A stretch of DNA of 56,369 nucleotides from Rhodothermales bacterium (lineage in GTDB: Bacteria; Bacteroidota; Rhodothermia; Rhodothermales; VXPQ01): assembly GCA_022821845.1 (NCBI GenBank), contig JAJECT010000037.1, forward strand, positions 72,351-128,719, given 5' to 3'. A program made the position numbers and the translations under genes. The notes under the pieces were generated by a model that saw only the letters and a list, made by a program, of their open reading frames with translations, was not told the DNA's origin and made no database searches. This document shows, one piece after another, positions 538-38,343 of this stretch. The stretch's first letter is position 1. The number at the start of each line of letters is the position of its first letter.

Positions 538-798
538 TCTGCTCTGGGCATTTTTTATATATAGCCGCCGATGAAAAACGTTATCGCGGGCTATTGTCAT
601 AACAGCAATAACCGTAAGGCCGAGGATGGCCAGGAAACGGTGTAATTTAACCTTCACACATATTTTCACTGTACGGGTTTAGTATTTACTTGACAATCAA
701 GTGGGACTTATACGGAAAACTATCCAAAACATCCCTAAACCCCTATAAAACAAAGACTTAACCCAATCATCCCACAAAATCCCATTTCCCTATATCCG
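538..798. other. Intergenic region with inverted-repeat copy
   Basis: No convincing gene. 708-727 is an exact 20-base inverted match to 4485-4504, and the similarity extends imperfectly on both sides (roughly 690-740 against 4470-4520). Read on the minus strand this stretch can encode the tail of a small membrane peptide (FYRGLGMFWIVFRI) resembling the peptide encoded at 4399-4539, so it is probably a decayed duplicate of that small gene. Confidence 0.5.
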
Positions 799-2181
799 TT
801 ATTTTACGTCAACGACAGGAACTGCCGGATGCGGTTGCTCTAGTGCCTTCCTTATCCGTTCATAGTCAAGAAAAGCCCCCCAAGACTTCACGCCTTTCCG
901 CCTGTTGCAGTTGCCGCAAAGTCCTATGAAGTTTTCGATTTCGTCAGCTCCGCCTCTTGACTTCGGAATAAGATGGTCAATCTCTACGTTTTTCATCTCC
1001 AGTGTTATAGCACAATATCCATTGAAACACTTGAAGCCTTGCCTGCGCCATAGTAGTTCTCGTATATCGTCGTCCTTGACTTTTGGAATATCTTTCCTCG
1101 TAGGCGGATGCTTTTTAACCGTTACGAACTCGTTGTCTATGTGCTGAACAAGCCCCGATGTTTCGTAAAGCCGTTTCTTCGTAATGTCTTCAGCTTGCCT
1201 ATCTATGTCTATACCTATCCATTTACGGCTAAGTTTTTCGGCAGCTACGCAAGTCGTAGCGCATCCAGCGAATGGATCAAGCACGAAATCGCCCTCATTG
1301 CTTGCCGCATTGATTATCCGTTCATATAAAGTAAGCGGTTTTTGAGTACTCCAACCTGTACGTTCTGGATGCGTTGTTGACAACATAGATATTTCCCACC
1401 AATCACGAGCATTGACGATAGAATACGTTCCTCGCTTATCTCGATAGTACTTTACCGCTCCACCCTGTCCCCCGCCAGTTTCCCCGTACGACTTGACTTT
1501 GATGGGATTGAATAAAGTTTGCTTTTCGTTCTTACCGTAGAATAAAATAATGTCGTGTTTTTTCGCAAAGCGACGTTTACTTGCCCCACCAGACTTGTAA
1601 CACCACACGACTTCATTGTGAAAGTTTTTCCGACCAAATATAGCGTCCATCAATAGCCGTAAATATGCATTAGCGGATGGATCGCAATGCAGGAAGATTG
1701 AGCCAGTCGGTTTTAGTATCCGGTGCATCTCTATCAATCGGGGGGCCATCCAGGCAAGAAAAGCGGCTATGCTGTTCTGAATGCGGCCAGTATCAATAGT
1801 ATATCCTTTGATGTTTCCGCCTTCAATGACCACAGCTGCCTCTATAAGTTCCTTAATCACTTGATCCGTAGACAGCACGTCGTACCAGTCGTCTGTGATG
1901 TCATCCCATCGCCAGCGGTCGTCAAAGCGTTGCTGAGCCGATCTGGATTCCAGAGGAGCATTATAGATTCGTTTGGAATTGAATGGGGGATCCGTAGCAA
2001 TCAGGTCTATCGAGTTGGAGTTGATGCCCCGCATAACCCTCAGGTTATCGCAGATGTACAGGGTACGGTTATCGACATTTGTGGGGGGGGGGGGGCTATT
2101 GTCATTGCTTTGATGTATGTTTTTCGGTTTCACGAAAGTATTTATACTCCATCCCCAAATAAAATGTTCCCGACACTCCAT
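799..2181 (-). CDS. DNA methyltransferase fused to HNH nuclease
   Basis: This is a beta-class amino-methyltransferase (N6-adenine or N4-cytosine). The catalytic motif IV, DPPF, is at residues 64-67 and the SAM-binding motif I, DPFAGCATT, at about 302-310; that order defines the beta class. 'TGWSTQKP' at about 275-281 is also typical. After a linker, an HNH domain occupies about 375-432: zinc-type Cys pairs (C385/C390, C422/C425), 'IDHLIPKSRGG' with H403, and 'ENFIGLCGNC'. The fusion puts modification and potential cleavage in one chain. A 13-base C tract (codons 29-33, S-PPPP) lies between the ATG and motif IV, so slippage would shut the frame off; as sequenced it is ON. Met50 lies past the tract and could give a shortened product. 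It is divergent from the transposase at 2299. Confidence 0.85.
   Translation of the reverse strand: MECREHFIWGWSINTFVKPKNIHQSNDNSPPPPTNVDNRTLYICDNLRVMRGINSNSIDLIATDPPFNSKRIYNAPLESRSAQQRFDDRWRWDDITDDWYDVLSTDQVIKELIEAAVVIEGGNIKGYTIDTGRIQNSIAAFLAWMAPRLIEMHRILKPTGSIFLHCDPSANAYLRLLMDAIFGRKNFHNEVVWCYKSGGASKRRFAKKHDIILFYGKNEKQTLFNPIKVKSYGETGGGQGGAVKYYRDKRGTYSIVNARDWWEISMLSTTHPERTGWSTQKPLTLYERIINAASNEGDFVLDPFAGCATTCVAAEKLSRKWIGIDIDRQAEDITKKRLYETSGLVQHIDNEFVTVKKHPPTRKDIPKVKDDDIRELLWRRQGFKCFNGYCAITLEMKNVEIDHLIPKSRGGADEIENFIGLCGNCNRRKGVKSWGAFLDYERIRKALEQPHPAVPVVDVK
2083..2095 (-). repeat. 13-base C tract inside methyltransferase frame
   Basis: Thirteen G on the plus strand (C on the coding strand) encode the end of Ser29 and Pro30-Pro33 of the methyltransferase-HNH fusion. 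Mononucleotide tracts this long in the 5' part of a methyltransferase gene are the classic arrangement for phase variation by slipped-strand mispairing. The exact count may also be affected by sequencing error. Confidence 0.9.
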
Positions 2182-2232
2182 TTATTCCAAAAAAATAACA
2201 CGAAAAAGACTTGCCTTTTTGTAAAAAAGCCC

Positions 2233-2261
2233 TTGACTTTCTCATATCTTTTTATTACATT
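2233..2261 (+). promoter_or_regulatory. Transposase promoter candidate
   Basis: TTGACT at 2233-2238, 17 bp, TACATT at 2256-2261, followed by the transposase ATG at 2299. On the opposite strand TATAAT (plus 2259-2264) could serve the methyltransferase gene, so the two divergent genes appear to share this AT-rich 117-bp region. Confidence 0.45.
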
Positions 2262-2298
2262 ATATATAGTTAAAACAAGGACTTGAACGGACAAGAAA

Positions 2299-3276
2299 AT
2301 GGATACGAAAATGAACACGAAAAACAAAAAACGTAAGTTCAGGAAGCCCGGAAAGCATTGGAGAGAGGGAATGACGATTATCGACCTTTTCGATATGTTT
2401 CCCGACGACGAAACCGCCGAACGCTGGTTTGAGCATATGCGCTGGGGCGAGGGAGGCCCTGCTTGCCCCGAATGCGGTTCTTGCCGCTACGCAGTCGTCA
2501 AGAACAGGAAGCCTATGCCCTACCGCTGCAAGGATTGCCGCAAGCATTTCAGCGTCCGCAAGGGAACGGTTATGGAGTCCAGCAAAATCGGTTTGCGGAA
2601 ATGGGCAATCGCCATTTACGCCTTCCTCACGAACCTTAAAGGCGTGTCCAGTATGAAGCTGCACCGAGACCTGGGTATCCGGCAATCCTCGGCCTGGCAT
2701 ATGCTCCAGCGCATCCGTGAAGCCTTTGACGAAGGCGAGCTGAAGTTCTGCGGCCCTGTGGAAGTAGACGAAACCTACATTGGCGGCAAGGAAGCGAACA
2801 AGCACGCCAGCAAGAAGCTCCACGTAGGCGGCGGAACGCAGGGCAAGGCTGCCGTTCTGGGAGTCAAGGAACGGGAGACAGGCCGGGTCATCGCCCGTCC
2901 TTTGGGATGGGAGCCTGGGGAAACGCTGGCCGGGTTCGTTCGGGAGAACGTGGAGACGGGCGAAACCGTCTACACGGACGGGCACAAGGGGTACAATCGG
3001 TTGAAGGATGACTACGAACACGAGGCAGTCCAGCACTCCGTAGGCGAATACGTGAATGGGCAGGCGCACACGAACGGCATCGAATCGTTCTGGGCTATGT
3101 TAAAGCGGGGCTATCACGGAACGTACCACAAGATGAGCTACAAGCACCTGCACCGCTACGTGAACGAGTTCGCTGGGAAGCACAACATTCGGAAACTGGA
3201 TACTTGCGATCAGATGGCCTATGTCGTGGAAAAGATGGATAACAAGCGGCTTCGGTATAGGGATTTGATTGGTTGA
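2299..3276 (+). CDS. IS1595 (ISXO2-like) family transposase
   Basis: An intact 325-aa transposase. An N-terminal zinc ribbon (C56/C59 and C77/C80, 'CPECG' and 'CKDC') is followed by a helix-turn-helix-like segment and the ISXO2-like catalytic domain: 'VDETYIGG' with D157, 'YTDGHKGYN' with D227, and 'HTNGIESFWAMLKRG' (N259/E262, K269). This is the DD(N/E)K pattern of the IS1595 group and the length is typical. I could not find convincing terminal inverted repeats immediately outside the gene, so the element may be degenerate at its ends. It lies between the methyltransferase-HNH gene and the DUF1232 gene within the AT-richer island. Confidence 0.9.
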   Translation: MDTKMNTKNKKRKFRKPGKHWREGMTIIDLFDMFPDDETAERWFEHMRWGEGGPACPECGSCRYAVVKNRKPMPYRCKDCRKHFSVRKGTVMESSKIGLRKWAIAIYAFLTNLKGVSSMKLHRDLGIRQSSAWHMLQRIREAFDEGELKFCGPVEVDETYIGGKEANKHASKKLHVGGGTQGKAAVLGVKERETGRVIARPLGWEPGETLAGFVRENVETGETVYTDGHKGYNRLKDDYEHEAVQHSVGEYVNGQAHTNGIESFWAMLKRGYHGTYHKMSYKHLHRYVNEFAGKHNIRKLDTCDQMAYVVEKMDNKRLRYRDLIG

Positions 3277-3284
3277 GACTTCAT

Positions 3285-3722
3285 CTAATCCTCACTTTGC
3301 TTCGATTTCTTTTTCTTATTGAATAATCCATCTACTTTTTCTTTGGCCCGTTCTTTATGTTCTGATGTAATATAATCGTGAACTATTTTTGCTGCCGCCG
3401 TTAATGCAGCAAAATCATCTGCAAAACCAATTGGACCCAAAAAGTCAGGAATAAGATCAAACGGCAGAATTAAATATGCAAGCGCAGCTACAATAGTATT
3501 TTTTGCCCATAGGGGCGTATTACGATCCATCAAGCAATAATAAAGAGTCAAGGCAAGGATCATAATTTCTTTGCCTGCCCTTTTGGCCCATTTTTTGATC
3601 CAGTTCCAGAATTTTTTAAGAGTAAAGCCGGGATCAATATTATCAATTTCTTTGACGTTATCGGCATTCTGGTTAGAATGTTCCTGGTCGTCGTTTCCGT
3701 TTTTGGGATTGTCGGTAGCCAT
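3285..3722 (-). CDS. DUF1232 (YkvA-like) membrane protein
   Basis: The C-terminal half contains the DUF1232 signature 'LILPFDLIPDFLGPIGFADD', within a hydrophobic stretch, followed by a Lys-rich tail. The N-terminal 50 residues are polar and Asn/Asp-rich and probably disordered. I chose the ATG at 3722; a longer frame uses TTG at 3791. The family is of unknown biochemical function, usually a small inner-membrane protein. The gene is convergent with the transposase, ending 9 bp past the transposase stop. There is no Shine-Dalgarno sequence, which is usual in this lineage. Confidence 0.75.
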   Translation of the reverse strand: MATDNPKNGNDDQEHSNQNADNVKEIDNIDPGFTLKKFWNWIKKWAKRAGKEIMILALTLYYCLMDRNTPLWAKNTIVAALAYLILPFDLIPDFLGPIGFADDFAALTAAAKIVHDYITSEHKERAKEKVDGLFNKKKKSKQSED

Positions 3723-4015
3723 AGTTGATGTTGTATTTTGGTTAGCTGTGGTGTCGCCATCCAGTATAGGGCACAGATCGGCGAATGTCAAGCGGAACCT
3801 GAGATTTTCGGGATTTCAGGAGAGAATGGGGCTTCTGGCCGGAAACGGAGAGGGGATTGGTTCGGGATGCAGGGTGGGATTGCTCCGCATAATTCACGAA
3901 AAATTCACTTGCTTTGTGTTTGGGTATTGATTACGGTTGCAGTGTCTCGTTGCTCGTGGCTGATGCCAGAGAGGAACGGGGCTTCGCAGAACGATCAAGT
4001 AAAACTCAAAGCACG

Positions 4016-4267
4016 ATGGATAACATCTGGAAAAGGACTTGGAAAGCAGGCATCAAACTCATAACAGACTTATTGAAGTCTAAGAAGTTTATGGCTTCTC
4101 TGGCATCTATGCTTGTAGGACTTGCCGCCAAAGTCGAATTGGATTTGGACGTTCAAGAAATAACAGCAATATTGTCGCCAGCAATCGCTTATATTTTGGG
4201 ACAGGGCATTGCTGATCACGGTAAGGAAGCCGAGAAGGTTAAAAAAGAGAACCAAGCCACTGGCTGA
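4016..4267 (+). CDS. Small membrane protein, holin-like
   Basis: An 83-aa product with a basic N-terminus, one clear hydrophobic segment ('FMASLASMLVGLAAKV', then 'ILSPAIAYILGQGIAD') and a charged Lys/Glu-rich tail. Size and layout recall small phage holin-like proteins with 'xIAYILGQ' tails, but I see no phage structural genes beside it. The frame is open upstream to 3914; the ATG at 4016 was chosen because the extension lacks protein-like composition. Its 3' end overlaps a 39-codon frame on the other strand. Confidence 0.45.
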   Translation: MDNIWKRTWKAGIKLITDLLKSKKFMASLASMLVGLAAKVELDLDVQEITAILSPAIAYILGQGIADHGKEAEKVKKENQATG

Positions 4268-4358
4268 CGTACATTATAGTTATCAGCCATCCGGCCAAAA
4301 GGTGCGCAACGATAAAGCCTGCGATACCTTCCGCTATATCTGTTTCTTCTGTTTTCAT
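4239..4358 (-). CDS. Tiny single-span membrane peptide (39 aa)
   Basis: An ATG at 4358 opens a 39-codon frame with an acidic N-terminus and one hydrophobic helix ('GFIVAHLLAGWLITIMYV'). It overlaps the 3' end of the convergent holin-like gene by 29 bp. No family is recognised. It is supported only by its membrane-protein-like composition. Confidence 0.3.
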   Translation of the reverse strand: MKTEETDIAEGIAGFIVAHLLAGWLITIMYVSQWLGSLF

Positions 4359-4398
4359 AATATCAAGCTATTTTAATATGGTTTGATTAGGGTGAGTT

Positions 4399-4539
4399 AT
4401 GTCTTTTTCATATTTATATTTTTCGGGAGTTCGCCCTGGTTTAGAGATATGTATAGCCGTTATTTTTTATGTGGGATATGGGGCTTGGATAGTTTTCCGT
4501 ATAATTCCCAATCAAGTTAAATATTTAATTCCGCAGTAA
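4399..4539 (+). CDS. Tiny membrane peptide (46 aa), duplicated
   Basis: ATG 4399 is preceded by GGTGAG (4391-4396), a possible ribosome site, though close. The product has one hydrophobic span ('ICIAVIFYVGYGAWIVFRII') and a basic tail. Its 3' half (4485-4504) has an exact 20-base inverted match at 708-727, where the minus strand encodes a similar 'FYRGLGMFWIVFRI' end, so this peptide probably exists in an intact and a decayed copy. It overlaps the 3' end of the secreted protein gene on the opposite strand. Confidence 0.33.
   Translation: MSFSYLYFSGVRPGLEICIAVIFYVGYGAWIVFRIIPNQVKYLIPQ
4485..4504. repeat. Inverted repeat partner of 708-727
   Basis: TTGGATAGTTTTCCGTATAA here is the exact reverse complement of 708-727. 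Flanking bases align imperfectly for about 50 bp. The two copies bracket the methyltransferase-HNH gene, the transposase and the DUF1232/holin-like genes, about 3.8 kb. Confidence 0.85.
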
Positions 4540-4981
4540 TTGAAGGATGCGATGTGCCAGGAGGAATCAAGCTAGTGCCTGTACATACACATATGCTCGA
4601 ATAAATGGCCAAATGGAATCTATCCCCAGTATATCCTGTATAAGTTTCAGTAACATTGTCATCGTGATGCGGATAAAAATCATACCAATCAATTGCAACA
4701 TTATTCTTATATACAATCACTGTAAAAAGATCCGGATCTCCGGTATTACCACCATTCACATCAATATCAAGATACAATTCGCATGCACTGGAAGGCCCAC
4801 CTCCGCAAACCACACCACTGGGCACTACAAGCGTGTTCGAGTAATTAATCCAAGGACCAGGATGGCCGACCCTTACATATGCATGTGGATCAAGTTCCGC
4901 GCCAGAACTATCGGATGATAGAGGCGAAAATGACATCGTCAACAAGGAGAGCAACAGAACCAATAAGGATGGCTTCAGCAT
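4517..4981 (-). CDS. Secreted hypothetical protein (154 aa)
   Basis: It begins with a clear signal peptide ('MLKPSLLVLLLSLLTMSFS', cleavage near residue 20-28) and continues as a small, acidic, Asp/Tyr/Thr-rich domain with a few Cys ('CGGGPSSAC', 'CVC') that could form disulfides. There are no transmembrane segments after the signal and no C-terminal sorting domain. No family is recognised; the composition suggests a small beta-sandwich exported protein. AT-rich sequence upstream (4985-5040) could hold its promoter. Confidence 0.5.
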   Translation of the reverse strand: MLKPSLLVLLLSLLTMSFSPLSSDSSGAELDPHAYVRVGHPGPWINYSNTLVVPSGVVCGGGPSSACELYLDIDVNGGNTGDPDLFTVIVYKNNVAIDWYDFYPHHDDNVTETYTGYTGDRFHLAIYSSICVCTGTSLIPPGTSHPSITAELNI

Positions 4982-5110
4982 GGCTGTAGTTTGGGTTTGG
5001 CTTCGATTTTGTAAACGAACTTATATAAGTCTAATATTACTATGATGTATTGGCTTGTCAAGTGGCAAATTTTGAATTTTGCATTAATAATGAATGTGAT
5101 GGGGCAAAAC

Positions 5111-5272
5111 AAAGCCAGCCTGGCCGAAGCGCAGTGGAAGCCCGAAGGCCCCCATGCCGTGCGCTGGGACGGGCGAGACGCCGCCGGGCGCGCCGTGGTC
5201 CCCGGAGCCTATTATTACGTGCTGGACGCCGGAAACCGCCGCGCCGTAAAGGGGATGATTCGGGGGTGGTAG
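5111..5272 (+). pseudogene. Truncated sorting-domain protein (3' remnant)
   Basis: Only the last ~50 codons of a host gene survive. 'HAVRWDGRDAAGR', 'GAYYYVLDAG' and 'KGMIRGW' match the final strands of the FlgD-like/type IX secretion C-terminal sorting domain. Composition switches abruptly from AT-rich to GC-rich near 5110, exactly where the domain similarity begins. The frame is technically open upstream to ATG 5042, but that part does not resemble the family. The remnant therefore marks the right boundary of the 1-5110 insertion. Confidence 0.62.
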
Positions 5273-5355
5273 GGGGTGCGACGCTGCCGCCGTCGCGCCG
5301 AAACGCCCCCCGACCCACCAGGAACCAAAAAAATGCCCCCTCCCGGCGAAACCCC

Positions 5356-5384
5356 TTGCATTTTTCCCTCGGATGTGTTAAAGT
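5356..5384 (+). promoter_or_regulatory. Promoter candidate for FG-GAP protein gene
   Basis: TTGCAT at 5356-5361, 17 bp, TAAAGT at 5379-5384; the start codon is at 5441. It has the same spacing as the other promoters noted in this window. Confidence 0.4.
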
Positions 5385-5440
5385 ACGTGTCCCGCTCCAA
5401 TAGAAGCGGTCCTTCAGTCACCTGAACCACCTGAAAAACC

Positions 5441-7393
5441 ATGAAATTCGTTACTGCTTCTCGCTATCTCGCTTTGCTTTCCGCCCTCGTCCTGCTCGTA
5501 ATCGGCGCCGGGACGGCTTCGGGACAGACCTTGGAATACGTCTTTTCGCCGGAAGGCTCCGAGGCTTCGGACCCCTTGGCGGTGGGCATCCAGAATGGCG
5601 TTCGCGGAATTTCCGGCCCGTACGACCTGGACGGCGACGGCAAAATGGAGATTCTGTTGGCGCAACACACGGCTGGAGGCCGGGTGCATGTCATTGAAAA
5701 TCAGGGCGTGGACATGTGGAAACATGTCTATTCGACCGCGCTCATTGATTCCTCTGGCTCCAGCTTGAACGCACGATATGCTGTGGGAACAGACCTGGAC
5801 GGGGACGGCCGGGGGGAAATCGTCTATGTGGCCGGAAGCGGATACGACGAAACGGCGGACAACAGTAACATCCTGGTCGTGGGTGCCTATGTATGGGAAT
5901 ACGACGGGCAAGGCGACGATAATTACGGAGACTTCCCGGCATCGGTAGGCAATTTCTACCAACTCGACGGCCTTGAAGAGCGAAACGCTCGCGCTGAGAA
6001 CATGGCGGCTCTGGATGTCGACGGCGACGGACAACAGGAACTACTCATCCCGGCAAACGGACCAAATTCCCATGACGTGTTTTACGTGCTCTCCATAACC
6101 GGAACCATCGAAACGGGAGGCGCCGCCAATACGTTCGCCACCTGGAACATCGAGTCGAGAGTGAACGCCCGCGACGGCGGAAACAAACTGGGAGGCGGGA
6201 GCCCCAATGCCATGCTTGCCGGCGACATGAACGGCGACGGCATGATGGACATCTCGTACCATGCCTGGAACAGTTTCAATTTCTTCAATGGAACGGTGAC
6301 AGGGGAGAATATGGTGGCGCTGCCAGACACTGCTGCCGGCATGAACCGCTTCTTGCAAGCAACCGCCGGAATCGGAGACCATGCCGCTATTTATGGAGGG
6401 GCCATAGGGGATATCGACGACGATGGAAACGACGAGGCGTTCTACCCGAATTGGTATACAGGCCATGTCGCCGTGATGGATTACGACAAAGATCAAAGCG
6501 TACTTTCCATTACGGCGGATGATTTTGTAACCGGCGTACTTAAGGATGCTGGTTCGGGAGGCGCAGCGGTTGGGGATCTGGATAAGGACGGCAAGATGGA
6601 TGTGCTTGTGGGAGGCTTTGGCTACAGCGCAGCCGATTTTATGGCGGATAAACCTGCCAATTTTCTGAACGCTGCAGAGTACAAGGGCGGCGATCCGACC
6701 AGTTCGAGCAGTTACAGGTTGACAGCTGTCGATCTGAGTGTGCAAATCGACTCGATAGGATTCAACCGCGTCTATCGGGATTCGCTTGGCAAAATGACTG
6801 ACTACTACGAGGTGGCCGATGGGCGATATGGACGCACATTGTCCGCCCCCGGTCACCCTGTAGCCCCGTCTGGCGTGGTGTTTCTCGGAGACCCGGATGG
6901 AGACGAATTAAACGAAGTCGCCATTGCCTTTCAGGGGATTGACGATAGCCTGCTGGTAATCGACGAGGTATGGAACGCCGACCCCGACAGTATGCGATAT
7001 GATCGCACCGTGCGGGCAACCATCCCGGCCCCCGTGCGCCCCTTCGTACGCATCTACGAATTCGCGGCGGACTTCACCGTTTCCGCGGAAGAGGATCCAA
7101 CGACCCTCCCCACCGGCTTCGCGTTGCATGAGAATTATCCGAACCCGTTCAACCCAAGCACGACCATCGGATACACGATTCCCTCCGAGACGAACGTAAC
7201 GGTGCGCGTGTACGACATCACCGGACGCGTCGTGCGAACGCTCGTCCACGGACAATCGCATGCCCCGGGAGTCTATGAAGTAATTTGGGACGGAACCGGC
7301 GACGGCGGCCACACCTTGGCCAGCGGCACGTATTTCTACAGCCTGGAATACCTCGGACGCCGCGACGTTAAAGCCATGATCCTCCTCAAGTAA
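5441..7393 (+). CDS. Secreted FG-GAP/VCBS repeat protein with T9SS sorting domain
   Basis: This 650-aa exported protein starts with a signal peptide ending near 'GTASGQ'. The body carries at least seven Asp-rich calcium-binding loops of FG-GAP/VCBS type ('DLDGDGKMEI', 'DLDGDGRGEI', 'DVDGDGQQEL', 'DMNGDGMMDI', 'DIDDDGNDEA', 'DLDKDGKMDV', 'DPDGDELNEV'), which predict a beta-propeller. The last ~85 residues are a type A C-terminal sorting domain ('HENYPNPFNPSTTIGYTI', 'VRVYDITGRVV', 'SGTYFYSLEY'), so the product is expected at the cell surface or outside through type IX secretion. A strong hairpin terminator follows, separating it from the TonB receptor gene. The substrate is unknown. Confidence 0.87.
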   Translation: MKFVTASRYLALLSALVLLVIGAGTASGQTLEYVFSPEGSEASDPLAVGIQNGVRGISGPYDLDGDGKMEILLAQHTAGGRVHVIENQGVDMWKHVYSTALIDSSGSSLNARYAVGTDLDGDGRGEIVYVAGSGYDETADNSNILVVGAYVWEYDGQGDDNYGDFPASVGNFYQLDGLEERNARAENMAALDVDGDGQQELLIPANGPNSHDVFYVLSITGTIETGGAANTFATWNIESRVNARDGGNKLGGGSPNAMLAGDMNGDGMMDISYHAWNSFNFFNGTVTGENMVALPDTAAGMNRFLQATAGIGDHAAIYGGAIGDIDDDGNDEAFYPNWYTGHVAVMDYDKDQSVLSITADDFVTGVLKDAGSGGAAVGDLDKDGKMDVLVGGFGYSAADFMADKPANFLNAAEYKGGDPTSSSSYRLTAVDLSVQIDSIGFNRVYRDSLGKMTDYYEVADGRYGRTLSAPGHPVAPSGVVFLGDPDGDELNEVAIAFQGIDDSLLVIDEVWNADPDSMRYDRTVRATIPAPVRPFVRIYEFAADFTVSAEEDPTTLPTGFALHENYPNPFNPSTTIGYTIPSETNVTVRVYDITGRVVRTLVHGQSHAPGVYEVIWDGTGDGGHTLASGTYFYSLEYLGRRDVKAMILLK

Positions 7394-32291: not shown

Positions 32292-33545
32292 ATGAGCAAG
32301 ACATCATCATATGATCCGTTTACAAAGGCAGCAATGGATCAAGTTCTAAAAGATTTGGATCCTATAGAACTAAACAAATATAATTATATCCAGGAAAATT
32401 TATCGGTTAATGATAACCAAGAATATAAAAATAAATTTATGGATTATTATTGTATCAAAATAAAAGACCGATCTGATTTACGAGAAGTATGTTTTTTATT
32501 TTGGGAACAAGAGATAAAAAATATACGCGACGATCCTGATAGGATAAAATTTAGTAATATTTTAAAATATATAATTGAAAATACTGAAATTGATTTTCGT
32601 CGCCGTCAGCCATTTTTATGTTTTTTATGCTCAAATTTGATTCATACACTTGCTCCAGATCATTTACCAGTATGGGGATCTCAAACTCTAAAATATTTTG
32701 AGCTTGATGAATATCTTTACAAAGATGAAATGGATTTGGATGACAAAATAGATTTTGATATGTATGATGAAATATATTCACAACTTAAAGCAAAATCGAA
32801 AAATGAAATTACACAAGATAGATTTATTAGATGGAAAAATACATTCGATGAATATTATACTGAAAAATATCCAGAATTTATAGAGTTTGCAGATATTAAA
32901 AAACTTGATTTGTTTTTCTGGAAATATCGACACAACAATACCAAGTATCTTGATTTAGAACAACGCATTAATTATAACTCAACCAACATTAGTCATGTGG
33001 GTCATGCATTGCTAATATTACGCTATGCACTTCTATTGTATTTCGAAATTGAGTATGAAAAAAGAGATCGAAAGCAATGGAATGATATACTTGAGGGATG
33101 CATTCTTCTTTTTGAAAAGGGTTATCATTTTAAAAGATATTCTGATATCATTATTTTATATAATGAAAATATCCATCCTATAGAATATCAACATTTAGCA
33201 AAATACTGGGATGTTATGCCTCTTTTTGAATTATTTGAATTTATTAAAATATGGAATCCTAATAAGGATTGTTATGATAATATTAAAACGTTTAATCAAA
33301 TATATACAAGTACTGATATTGAATCCCTCAAAAAGTATCGTAATAAATGGGCGCATCAGGGCCTTCTTAATTACCGTAATAAATGGAATCATCAAGAATT
33401 TTTTTCTATTCTTGATTGTCAAAACATATTCAAACTTGTTTTCGAATTCATCGAAAATTTGCCTCTTAAGCAAATTAAAAAATTAAATATTGTACGCCAA
33501 ATGATTTTTGATTATTGTGAAAATAATAACATAAATATTGATTAG
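32292..33545 (+). CDS. AT-rich protein of unknown function with HEPN-like motifs
   Basis: 417 aa, extremely AT-rich next to its GC-rich neighbours (Lys, Ile, Asn, Tyr-rich product), so it was acquired horizontally. I do not recognise the family. The N-terminal ~150 residues are helical; 'LAPDHLPVWGSQTLKYFEL' recalls helical domains with a 'P[VI][WY]D..' turn. Near the C-terminus two R-x4-H motifs stand 12 residues apart: R350-NKWA-H355 and R362-NKWN-H367. R-x4-6-H is the active-site signature of HEPN ribonucleases, and 'RNKWAHQ' in particular resembles Swt1-type HEPN domains. No signal or membrane span is seen. No antitoxin is beside it on the same strand; the next gene is a convergent XRE-ImmA/IrrE gene. 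HEPN nuclease is an inference from the motif. Confidence 0.6.
   Translation: MSKTSSYDPFTKAAMDQVLKDLDPIELNKYNYIQENLSVNDNQEYKNKFMDYYCIKIKDRSDLREVCFLFWEQEIKNIRDDPDRIKFSNILKYIIENTEIDFRRRQPFLCFLCSNLIHTLAPDHLPVWGSQTLKYFELDEYLYKDEMDLDDKIDFDMYDEIYSQLKAKSKNEITQDRFIRWKNTFDEYYTEKYPEFIEFADIKKLDLFFWKYRHNNTKYLDLEQRINYNSTNISHVGHALLILRYALLLYFEIEYEKRDRKQWNDILEGCILLFEKGYHFKRYSDIIILYNENIHPIEYQHLAKYWDVMPLFELFEFIKIWNPNKDCYDNIKTFNQIYTSTDIESLKKYRNKWAHQGLLNYRNKWNHQEFFSILDCQNIFKLVFEFIENLPLKQIKKLNIVRQMIFDYCENNNINID
33336..33407 (+). repeat. Tandem ~36-bp repeat carrying the R-x4-H motif
   Basis: Two adjacent units both encode 'YRNKW-x-HQ' (first near 33336-33371, second near 33372-33407). The DNA of the core, CGTAATAAATGG, is identical in both. 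The duplication gives two potential HEPN active-site motifs in one protein. Confidence 0.7.
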
Positions 33546-33557
33546 CCACTGATGAAG

Positions 33558-33636
33558 GCGGTGTACACCGCAGTCCTACATTGAAAACAGCCCCCTGAAA
33601 AACGTCTGTTTTATTCGGATCACCCTCCCCCCCCCC
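33558..33636. terminator. Hairpins and a C10 tract between convergent genes
   Basis: GCGGTGTACACCGC (33558-33571) is a perfect 14-base palindrome. AAAACAG (33584-33590) pairs with CTGTTTT (33606-33612), a terminator-like stem ending in T. A run of ten C (33627-33636) lies 11 bp before the stop codon of the XRE-ImmA/IrrE gene, outside its frame. Confidence 0.4.
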
Positions 33637-33646
33637 TCAATAATTT

Positions 33647-34906
33647 TCAGCATTCCCCGCGCAGTATATCGACCGGCTGGATTGTATCCAGGCCCGCTTG
33701 CTTCAGCAGCGCATCTGCATTCCGGTCAGGGTCTGCCAACTGGATGAGTTCCCGGAGCTTGTTCCGGGTAATTTCCTCGCGTCGCAGCGCCTCCATGCCC
33801 AGCGAAAGAAACCGCGAATGAAACCGATTCCTTTCGGCCTCATGATCTGGTTCGGGAAGGCCAAGAATTTCGCTTATCGCGCGACCGCGACCCGCTTGGT
33901 CTTCGGCGGCCAGCGTCGTTCGTTCGGTCTCGTTAATCATGCGAATATCTTTCAGGCGATACAGCATGGCGGCGCGACTCACGCCAAAGTGATGGGCAAT
34001 CCGGACCAGATCATGCATTTGAATATCCTGGCTTCCCGGTTCCATGCGCCCCTCTGCATGCAAAGCAACCTCTCCATCATATACATCCATCTGCGCCCGG
34101 CTGGGACGCCCTTTGGCAAGCCCGTAGACAAAGGATCGAACAGCGCCTTCGGGTATTAGAAAAGCCGCCGCAAACGCATTGGCGCGGACCTCGTTCAGAT
34201 TGGCGCGGTCGCTCGAACGGCTCAGCATACCGCGGATTTCACGATCAAAAAGTACATGGGCATACTCGTGCGCGCACGAAAAACGTCGCCGCAAAACATG
34301 GTGCCGACGATTGACCGCGACCAATATGCCATGCCTGGCGTCGATCAGGGTCAATCCGGATATATCGTCGGGTAAATTCACCTGCGCCGTGCGAATCCTC
34401 TGGCTTTCCAGAAGATCGACCACATCCGGCAGCGGCGCATCGCCCAGGTTAAGCCGATGACGCTCTTTCGCCGCTGCGCTTCCTCCCTGCTGCACTGCAT
34501 CCCATTTGGAATCTGGCGCAGGAACAGGATAGATCGGAATCGTAGCCAACCCGCGATCCAAACCAAGGCGCCGCTCCAGGTTGGTGATCTCGCGCCCCAG
34601 GGTAATGCATTGACGCAGCGAATCCAGAACGCCTGCATCCATCGCAACGCCCGGTTGCCGCCTGAAAAGCGCCATGACCGTTTCTCCCTCCGACAAATCC
34701 TTTTCCAGAAAGTCCTGAATGTCTCGTCCGTAGAGATGCGCGAGCCGATGCAACTCCAGGCTCGACACCCCGCGGCGACCCTGTTCCATTTGGGAAATGG
34801 CCGCACGGGAAAGTTCGAGGTGGTCGGCCACCTCTTCCTGAGTCATCTGGCAAGATTCACGCGCCGCACGCAGTCGGCGGGCAAGCTCGCCCTGGGTAAT
34901 AGCCAC
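33647..34906 (-). CDS. XRE regulator fused to ImmA/IrrE metallopeptidase
   Basis: 419 aa from GTG 34906. An N-terminal XRE helix-turn-helix ('TQEEVADHLELSRAAISQMEQG') is followed by an ImmA/IrrE peptidase domain with the HExxH zinc site 'SCAHEYAHVLFD' and 'NEVRANAFAAAFLIP'. In phage and mobile elements such proteins act as repressors or as proteases that cleave a repressor; others act as antitoxins. A TTG at 34966 extends the frame, but the best promoter has its -10 on top of it, so the GTG start is preferred. It is convergent with the HEPN-like gene. Its composition is intermediate, also suggesting import. Confidence 0.85.
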   Translation of the reverse strand: MAITQGELARRLRAARESCQMTQEEVADHLELSRAAISQMEQGRRGVSSLELHRLAHLYGRDIQDFLEKDLSEGETVMALFRRQPGVAMDAGVLDSLRQCITLGREITNLERRLGLDRGLATIPIYPVPAPDSKWDAVQQGGSAAAKERHRLNLGDAPLPDVVDLLESQRIRTAQVNLPDDISGLTLIDARHGILVAVNRRHHVLRRRFSCAHEYAHVLFDREIRGMLSRSSDRANLNEVRANAFAAAFLIPEGAVRSFVYGLAKGRPSRAQMDVYDGEVALHAEGRMEPGSQDIQMHDLVRIAHHFGVSRAAMLYRLKDIRMINETERTTLAAEDQAGRGRAISEILGLPEPDHEAERNRFHSRFLSLGMEALRREEITRNKLRELIQLADPDRNADALLKQAGLDTIQPVDILRGEC

Positions 34907-34957
34907 GGTATTTTGAACGCGATTGCATGATCTGGACACAGCGCCCGGATCTGCTGA

Positions 34958-34986
34958 ATGATACAAAATAAATCCAAAAATGTCAA
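34958..34986 (-). promoter_or_regulatory. Promoter and possible operator of XRE-ImmA gene
   Basis: On the minus strand TTGACA (plus 34981-34986), 17 bp, TATCAT (plus 34958-34963). AAATCCA (34970-34976) and TGGATTT (34991-34997) form an inverted repeat across the -35, a fitting operator for autoregulation by the XRE domain. Confidence 0.6.
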
Positions 34987-37380: not shown

Positions 37381-38343
37381 ATGCCCCCCCCCCCGCTTAA
37401 TACAGGAATACTCCTGACCCTCGGCTTGCTCCTCTGCCTGGCGCATCCCGCCAAGGCCCAGTTCATCGGGGACCGCATTCGGGTAACCACCGAAAGCGGC
37501 GAAAAAATCATTGGGGAATTGCAGGGGTACGACGACTCGTCCCTGACGCTTCTTGCGGACTCCGCAGAGCAAAGCGTCGCCTACGACGACATGGCGAAGT
37601 TGCAGCGGAGTTTGGGCATGCGTTCGTATGCCAGAAAAGGCGCCCGGAGAGGCTTGGTCGCTGGCGCAACGGTCGGCCTGATTTCGGTAATCAGGTACGA
37701 AACCGCGAGCAGTGGATATATTGCTATTCCTGCCTTATTCGGTTTGACAGGCAGCATAGGCGGCTTCATCTTCAGCGCCCCGTTCAAAACAGAACAATGG
37801 GAGCGCCTGGATATTTCCGGTCGGGACAGCGCGTCCGCGTTACCCCTCATTGGAGTCCATGCAAAATTCGCCGGGGATCTCATGCGGATAACCAACAAAA
37901 GCGGACGAACAATAACCGGACGCTTGCGAACATACGACGCCCGCTCCCTGACCATTCTTACAGACTCGACAGAACAAAGCATAGCGTATGCCGATATGCT
38001 TTCTTTGGAGAGGAGACAGTTAGTCCGACGATTTCCTGTGCAGGGCGCCCTCGCAGGTTTGGGCATTGGCGCGCTTGCGAGCATTCTCATAGTAGCAGCA
38101 GAATGCGGTAAGAGCTGCGAAGGGGGGGCGGCTATTGGGGCCGCAATATTGGCAATAGGCGGGGCTACCGTCGGCACCGCGCTGGGCTTGATATTCGGCA
38201 TAGTCAAAAAGACCGAAACCTGGGAACGCCTCGACATTCCCGGGCAGGAACGCGGAATGTCCGTCGCGCCGGTTATCGGGGTTCATCCGTATGGCCGCCT
38301 GGCCCTGGGTGCCCGCATTTCGTTGTCATTGGATCGCCGCTAA
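37381..38343 (+). CDS. Two-repeat membrane protein, copy A
   Basis: 320 aa. After a signal peptide ('LNTGILLTLGLLLCLAHPAKA') the protein is two tandem repeats. Each has a small SH3/Sm-like strand set ('TESGEKIIGELQGYDDSSLTLL' first half, 'NKSGRTITGRLRTYDARSLTIL' second half, here trimmed: 'GEKIIGELQGYDDSSLTLL', 'GRTITGRLRTYDARSLTIL'), an 'EQSxAYxDMxxLxR' motif, a Gly-rich hydrophobic pair ('GARRGLVAGATVG', 'GALAGLGIGALASI') and a 'KTExWERLDIxG' end. The function is unknown; envelope location is likely. The start codon abuts an 11-base C tract; the homologous start of copy B (here 37346) is out of frame. Downstream of the ATPase relic and oriented away from it. Confidence 0.72.
   Translation: MPPPPLNTGILLTLGLLLCLAHPAKAQFIGDRIRVTTESGEKIIGELQGYDDSSLTLLADSAEQSVAYDDMAKLQRSLGMRSYARKGARRGLVAGATVGLISVIRYETASSGYIAIPALFGLTGSIGGFIFSAPFKTEQWERLDISGRDSASALPLIGVHAKFAGDLMRITNKSGRTITGRLRTYDARSLTILTDSTEQSIAYADMLSLERRQLVRRFPVQGALAGLGIGALASILIVAAECGKSCEGGAAIGAAILAIGGATVGTALGLIFGIVKKTETWERLDIPGQERGMSVAPVIGVHPYGRLALGARISLSLDRR
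37384..37394 (+). repeat. 11-base C tract at the start codon
   Basis: ATG at 37381 is followed directly by eleven C; copy B has five C at the same place. At eleven C only ATG 37381 is in frame; at nine or twelve C the upstream ATG 37346 would be in frame instead; at ten C neither would be. Tract length thus sets which N-terminus, if any, is made. Confidence 0.85.

Follow-up and report, generated by a model that had tools for sequence, protein, structure and literature searches.

What does a gene encode, and what moves it, when a run of 13 C stands close to its 5'-end, ahead of the catalytic motifs of a DNA methyltransferase (MTase) with a nuclease domain at its C-terminus? We addressed this question for one such gene in a Rhodothermales bacterium; 'the window' below is the whole stretch of contig JAJECT010000037.1 that was analysed, 56,369 nt in length. 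The reading we favour, with a probability of about 0.6, is that of a transposon-borne one-chain modification/restriction enzyme that is switched as a whole by poly-C slippage.

Architecture of the MTase-HNH gene

The gene occupies positions 799-2181 of the minus strand and encodes 460 aa if read from a distant start codon (ATG1, 2179-2181). Its product contains a beta-class N6-adenine MTase domain (1147-2073, minus strand; residues about 37-345, as delimited by Pfam and structure matches) and an HNH nuclease domain (841-1080, minus strand; residues about 368-447). Pfam matches to the 460-aa ORF cover residues 58-336 for N6_N4_Mtase (E-value 1e-45) and residues 389-430 for HNH (E-value 8e-11). 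The motif order is that of the beta class, with motif IV (DPPF, residues 64-67) followed by a variable target-recognition region (TRD; residues about 194-270) and motif I (DPFAGCATT, residues 302-310), and the fold agrees with this order. Variability along the MTase-HNH protein alignment is highest in its central region. The initial annotation had described a complete beta-class MTase and an HNH domain in a single chain, with 13 C before the catalytic motif; motifs, Pfam matches and models agree with the former, and the tract, which spans codons 29-33, does lie ahead of both DPPF and DPFAGCATT.

In a fold search the MTase model was closest to M.BceJIV (Z 26.7), CcrM (Z 25.6) and RsrI (Z 25.3). 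The window protein shares the order IV - TRD - I and the fold with these enzymes and with MboIIA, and differs from all four in having a motif I of the form DPFxGCATT and an HNH domain fused at the C-terminus. Since the MTase dominates a whole-protein fold search, the HNH domain was modelled and searched alone. The model (pLDDT 90.7) matched HNH domains of Cas9 with Z of 8-9.3, with weaker matches to GmeHNH and EcoKMcrA, and the domain has sequence similarity to IscB and Cas9 as well. Unlike IscB and Cas9, the window protein has no RuvC-like domain that we could find, and its choice of target would come from the MTase, not from an RNA. Residues 1-23 of the long form have low-confidence predictions, as is usual for disordered segments.

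Alignments and model together show D-H...N catalytic residues, zinc cysteines and a beta-beta-alpha fold in the HNH domain. The residues D402, H403, N417 and N426 and the four cysteines (C385, C390, C422 and C425) are invariant in 61 aligned sequences, an invariance that is partly a selection effect, as the set was picked for MTase motifs and an HNH-like pattern. The completeness of the HNH site, which the initial annotation had proposed to check by structure prediction, is supported by these residues and by the Cas9 HNH fold, and both the MTase and the HNH sites are apparently complete. HNH domains of the Cas9 type cut one strand, and by analogy the HNH domain of the window protein may do no more than nick. 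The gene is not accompanied by a second, separate MTase that would protect the other strand, which counts against a restriction-modification (RM) reading if protection needs one.

Relatives of the gene and exchange of the nuclease

A profile scan of genome contigs returned more than 560 related stretches from many phyla; the names of many of the records suggest an origin in sponge and termite-gut sets. A viral scan with the window protein as the single query found no relative; a scan with the profile did find viral relatives, with most of the reported matches stopping in or just past the MTase region. When a match to >80% of the query was required, there were four phage records and no plasmid record.

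In some relatives the same MTase carries another nuclease in place of HNH: T5orf172/GIY-YIG in L150 and L161, Mrr_cat in L146 and L165. None of the unbroken full-length ORFs among the best 80 homologues has lost DPPF. The retention of a nuclease of one fold or another suggests that the MTase is coupled to a nuclease function.

These observations bear on a first alternative, that the enzyme is a phase-variable MTase acting mainly epigenetically: switching would change methylation at many sites and so alter expression, with the HNH domain contributing little. MTases that govern phasevarions are well known (PMC12707154, PMC8355987), and two relatives, L091 and L115, combine an intact MTase with an HNH motif that is damaged. 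We nevertheless consider this alternative unlikely, given the invariant catalytic and zinc residues described above and given that relatives without HNH often have a nuclease of another fold instead.

The transposon and its insertion

The gene is a passenger of an IS1595-family transposon of 3807 bp (703-4509). The element is bounded by terminal inverted repeats (TIRs) at 703-728 (plus strand) and 4484-4509 (minus strand), which match at 24 of 26 positions, have termini of the form GGG...CCC and are flanked by a perfect 8-bp target-site duplication (TSD), AATCAAGT, at 695-702 and 4510-4517 (plus strand). Divergently from the MTase gene, on the plus strand at 2299-3276, lies the gene for a 325-aa IS1595-family (ISXO2-like) transposase with a zinc ribbon (PF12762, E-value 2e-38; PF12760, E-value 1e-8; NF033547, 181.7 bits against a cut-off of 75). 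Two more passenger ORFs follow: one at 3285-3791 (minus strand) encodes a 168-aa DUF1232 protein with no assigned function (Pfam; phrog_14750), and one at 3914-4267 (plus strand; start uncertain) encodes a small holin-like membrane protein (phrog_9987 holin, E-value 6e-8). An 88-aa ORF resembling this holin-like cargo is present in an element of the sister genome G001 (L061, 1849-2115).

The same site is empty in G001 (contig C39), where the joined flanks align without interruption across a single AATCAAGT. The element was therefore either inserted after the two lineages had parted, which is the simpler reading, or cleanly lost from G001. The 'mobile island' of the initial annotation can thus be refined to a transposon of the IS1595 family that carries a passenger gene, as defined by TIRs, TSD and empty site; putative transposition of the element is suggested both by the absence of the insertion from the sister genome and by nested insertions in G001.

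Outside the element, a 165-170 bp stretch of the window (about 5114-5283), which encodes a FlgD/T9SS-like C-terminal end, has two further copies a short way upstream of the window (G000:C29:70635 and 72072), with 95-99% identity.

The sister genome has five copies of the MTase-HNH gene within IS1595-type ends, four of them (the outer element described next, L062, L063 and L064) with no transposase of their own inside. An inner element (L061, 1606-4875; duplication AATCCAGA) is inserted in the MTase gene of an outer one (676-5538; duplication TATTTCAT), and this outer element in turn lies within a CRISPR array. The array is interrupted there (L061, 1-700 and 5530-6430, from G001:C4): TATTTCAT lies in a repeat, and the same spacer (TTCTTAAAGTACTTAAGAAGT...) is found on both sides.

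When the window element is compared with the inner G001 element, divergence proves to be unevenly distributed. The transposases are 93.9% identical, the 86 nt before the tract 98.8% and the 3' flanks 86.5%, whereas the MTase-HNH body is only 64-70% identical. On this comparison the passenger appears to have been exchanged or diversified inside a conserved frame, with the change setting in close to the tract. Selection for new recognition specificities may be responsible.

Among 105 loci examined in the wider family, 22 have an IS1595-type transposase nearby. Ends of the form GGG...CCC (at least 19 of 26 matches) together with a perfect 8-bp duplication were detected at 17 of the 105, a number that counts one locus twice (L064 and L130), compared with 0 when the duplication was reversed. 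One of the GIY-YIG fusions, L150, itself lies within TIR and TSD ends. Comparable units are present in some ten named genomes, which belong to several phyla; among the hosts are Alphaproteobacteria, Gammaproteobacteria, Nitrospira, Dehalococcoidia, Caldilineaceae and Rhodothermales.

Such a location suggests a second alternative, in which the HNH domain serves the transposon: it would cut or nick sites that lack the methyl mark of the element, in chromosomes that have lost the element or in target DNA, and so promote spread or retention. A similar role has been proposed for the IscB and TnpB nucleases of other elements, and the gene is cargo of IS1595-type elements with an HNH domain that resembles IscB and Cas9 in sequence. 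Against this, related MTase-HNH genes also reside in loci where neither element ends nor a transposase were found. The gene is also dispensable for transposition: IS1595 copies in G004 (L078 and L079 in G004:C1) that keep only a 57-codon remnant of the MTase 5'-end have still multiplied, with four such places in that genome. We judge it improbable that service to the transposon is what the nuclease is for.

The tract and the reading frame

The proposed phase-variation tract of the window gene is a C13 homopolymer at 2083-2095 on the minus strand (13 G on the plus strand). At this length the MTase-HNH frame is open from ATG1, which is situated 86 nt before the tract. An alternative start codon, ATG2 (2103-2105, minus strand; 10 nt before the tract), shares the frame of the MTase when the tract is C11 or C14, but not when it is C13; by the same frame arithmetic the frame would be reached from this ATG at C14 and from no start at C12. 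The length and placement of the tract thus set the frame, as in phase-variable genes. In most other copies an ATG is located 2-17 nt ahead of the tract. ATG2 is its counterpart in the window, and in the C11 copy of G001 the counterpart of ATG2 is the sole in-frame start. The phase of the window copy is therefore ambiguous, ON only via the distant ATG1 and OFF via the tract-adjacent ATG. The frame had been called intact; this holds from ATG1, but C13 is out of frame from the tract-adjacent start typical of relatives.

The tract is not unique in its 2.8-Mb genome, which has other runs of 11 or more elsewhere. Separately, a dense poly-G at a contig end (G000:C21:55-133) is probably a sequencing artefact and calls for caution with contig-end homopolymers in this assembly.

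Tracts in related genes

Counting of tract lengths in related genomes, another of the checks proposed initially, showed that they differ (C8-C13, G10-G12) and that they set the frame. Ten copies have start tracts, of C13, C11, C10, C11, C9, C9, C8, C8, G12 and G10; by frame arithmetic, in a comparison that runs across paralogues and species only, three are in frame and seven out. The long MTase-HNH coding sequence is intact 3' of the tract in most of the ten; the exceptions are L168, where an additional break occurs, and the copy with C10, which the inner element also splits. Start-position tracts were also observed in other phyla. Screening of 59 relatives for additional ATG+C9 leaders recovered only the two known copies, and no near-identical pair differing in tract length was seen.

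In 80 named homologous loci we observed four C/G runs of 8 or more in start regions against 0.05 expected (P 3e-7) and five in gene bodies against 0.75 expected (P 1e-3); as the 80 loci are related to each other, these P values should be taken as guides. The expected counts come from the remaining DNA of the same loci, so the excess has to be read against how rare such runs are in real flanking DNA. A chance model with independent bases, which predicted ~8.6 runs over those genes, was rejected since real flanking DNA has far fewer. In-gene G9-G13 runs, in frame, were found at 5 of the 80 loci, and in G001 an internal C8 breaks one copy at a place where the paralogue reads C7. Tracts are commoner near an IS1595 transposase (7 of 15 loci, compared with 2 of 65 without one; P 6e-5); L120, with ends CGCAATG... 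unlike the GGG type, was excluded from the element tally. The tract of the window gene is thus very probably a slippage switch, and it is possible that homopolymer errors in assemblies affect some of the lengths.

A third alternative does without a switch at the DNA level: slippage of RNA polymerase or of the ribosome on the tract would yield a fixed fraction of in-frame product. This would fit the seven out-of-frame copies, which have kept a long coding sequence after the tract. Tract lengths, on the other hand, vary among relatives, and members free of a tract exist, e.g. L062, and we find this alternative very hard to credit. That the gene is a decaying passenger or an assembly artefact with no function, as broken and vestigial copies (L118, L168, G004) and the artefactual look of the poly-G at C21:55-133 might suggest, can be given hardly any weight, given the 98.8% match of the flank upstream of the tract to the G001 element, the tracts at the same position in other phyla and the intact coding sequence 3' of the tract.

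Proposed mechanism

What was computed directly is a transposon, an insertion dating from after the sister split, intact MTase and HNH sites, varied tracts that are mostly out of phase, and three unrelated nuclease folds on the same MTase. As we picture the switched one-chain enzyme, an IS1595-family transposon would carry and spread it as cargo; the beta-class MTase would methylate adenine at a specific site chosen via the target-recognition region; and the C-terminal HNH domain would cut DNA without that mark. Slippage of the poly-C tract at the 5'-end, if it takes place in living populations, would shift the whole enzyme in or out of frame, and modification and cutting would then be produced in some cells and daughter elements and not in others. 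The benefit could be defence, retention of the element or both. It had been argued that toggling modification and cleavage together avoids self-damage. This can apply at best to switching from ON to OFF; from OFF to ON, newly made enzyme would meet an unmethylated chromosome whatever the linkage.

In a broader version, which we hold tentatively and at somewhat less than even odds, IS1595-type transposons with interchangeable MTase-nuclease cargo (HNH, GIY-YIG or PD-(D/E)XK fused to a single MTase scaffold) and phase variation by C/G tracts at the start codon are widespread, and form a mobile switchable restriction/retention module that crosses phyla in symbiont communities.

If these readings are true, phase variation of RM, for which most known cases are in pathogens, is also carried about by transposons in uncultured bacteria of many phyla, and an element-borne switch would let a transposon enter a new cell either silent or active. 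How a restriction enzyme can enter a host that lacks the methylation is a long-standing question, which would become directly testable. A single gene that occurs with three unrelated nuclease folds could, moreover, show how combined RM enzymes originate.

Relation to known systems

Phase-variable Type IIG enzymes, such as Campylobacter cj0031 and H. pylori JHP1272 and HP1353-HP1354, likewise combine MTase and nuclease in one chain under a homopolymeric-tract switch (PMC8355987, PMC3936762). The single-chain switchable design, put forward initially as possibly undescribed, was thus already known. Enzymes of Type IIC/IIG mostly have an N-terminal PD-(D/E)XK nuclease and a gamma-class MTase, with one alpha-class exception named (PMC4081073). 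The window gene, which also has endonuclease and MTase domains in one chain, departs from this make-up with a beta-class MTase followed by a C-terminal HNH domain, and in being transposon cargo.

With its DDE transposase, 25-26 bp TIRs, target duplication and extra genes the element resembles transporter IS (tIS) of the IS1595 family. MTase cargo is on record for tIS of the IS1380 family, and regulators or resistance genes for those of IS1595 (PMC11891212, PMC5704250). Our literature search, which covered few subscription journals, found no IS1595 tIS with an MTase-nuclease fusion or with a phase-variable tract in such cargo, nor a phase-variable beta-class MTase with C-terminal HNH on IS1595-type transposons. 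Within that scope, what is new is the combination of a beta-MTase with HNH, the transposon that carries it and the recurrence of the tract; single-chain phase-variable RM is not. Mobile insertion cassettes are non-autonomous elements with cargo between IS ends. The G001 genes that lie between IS1595-type ends with no transposase are similar to them, and differ in that the cargo is an MTase-HNH gene.

Other loci in the window

Two further regions of the window have homopolymers near or within genes. A possible defence pair at 32292-34966 consists of a Swt1-like HEPN gene (weak match) and an HTH/IrrE-peptidase gene (RmrA-like in PADLOC), with a C10 run between them at 33627-33636. A 320-aa ORF at 37381-38343, with a weak LSM match, begins with ATG followed by C11 (37384-37394) in frame and then a signal-peptide-like stretch; it is another candidate phase-variable gene.
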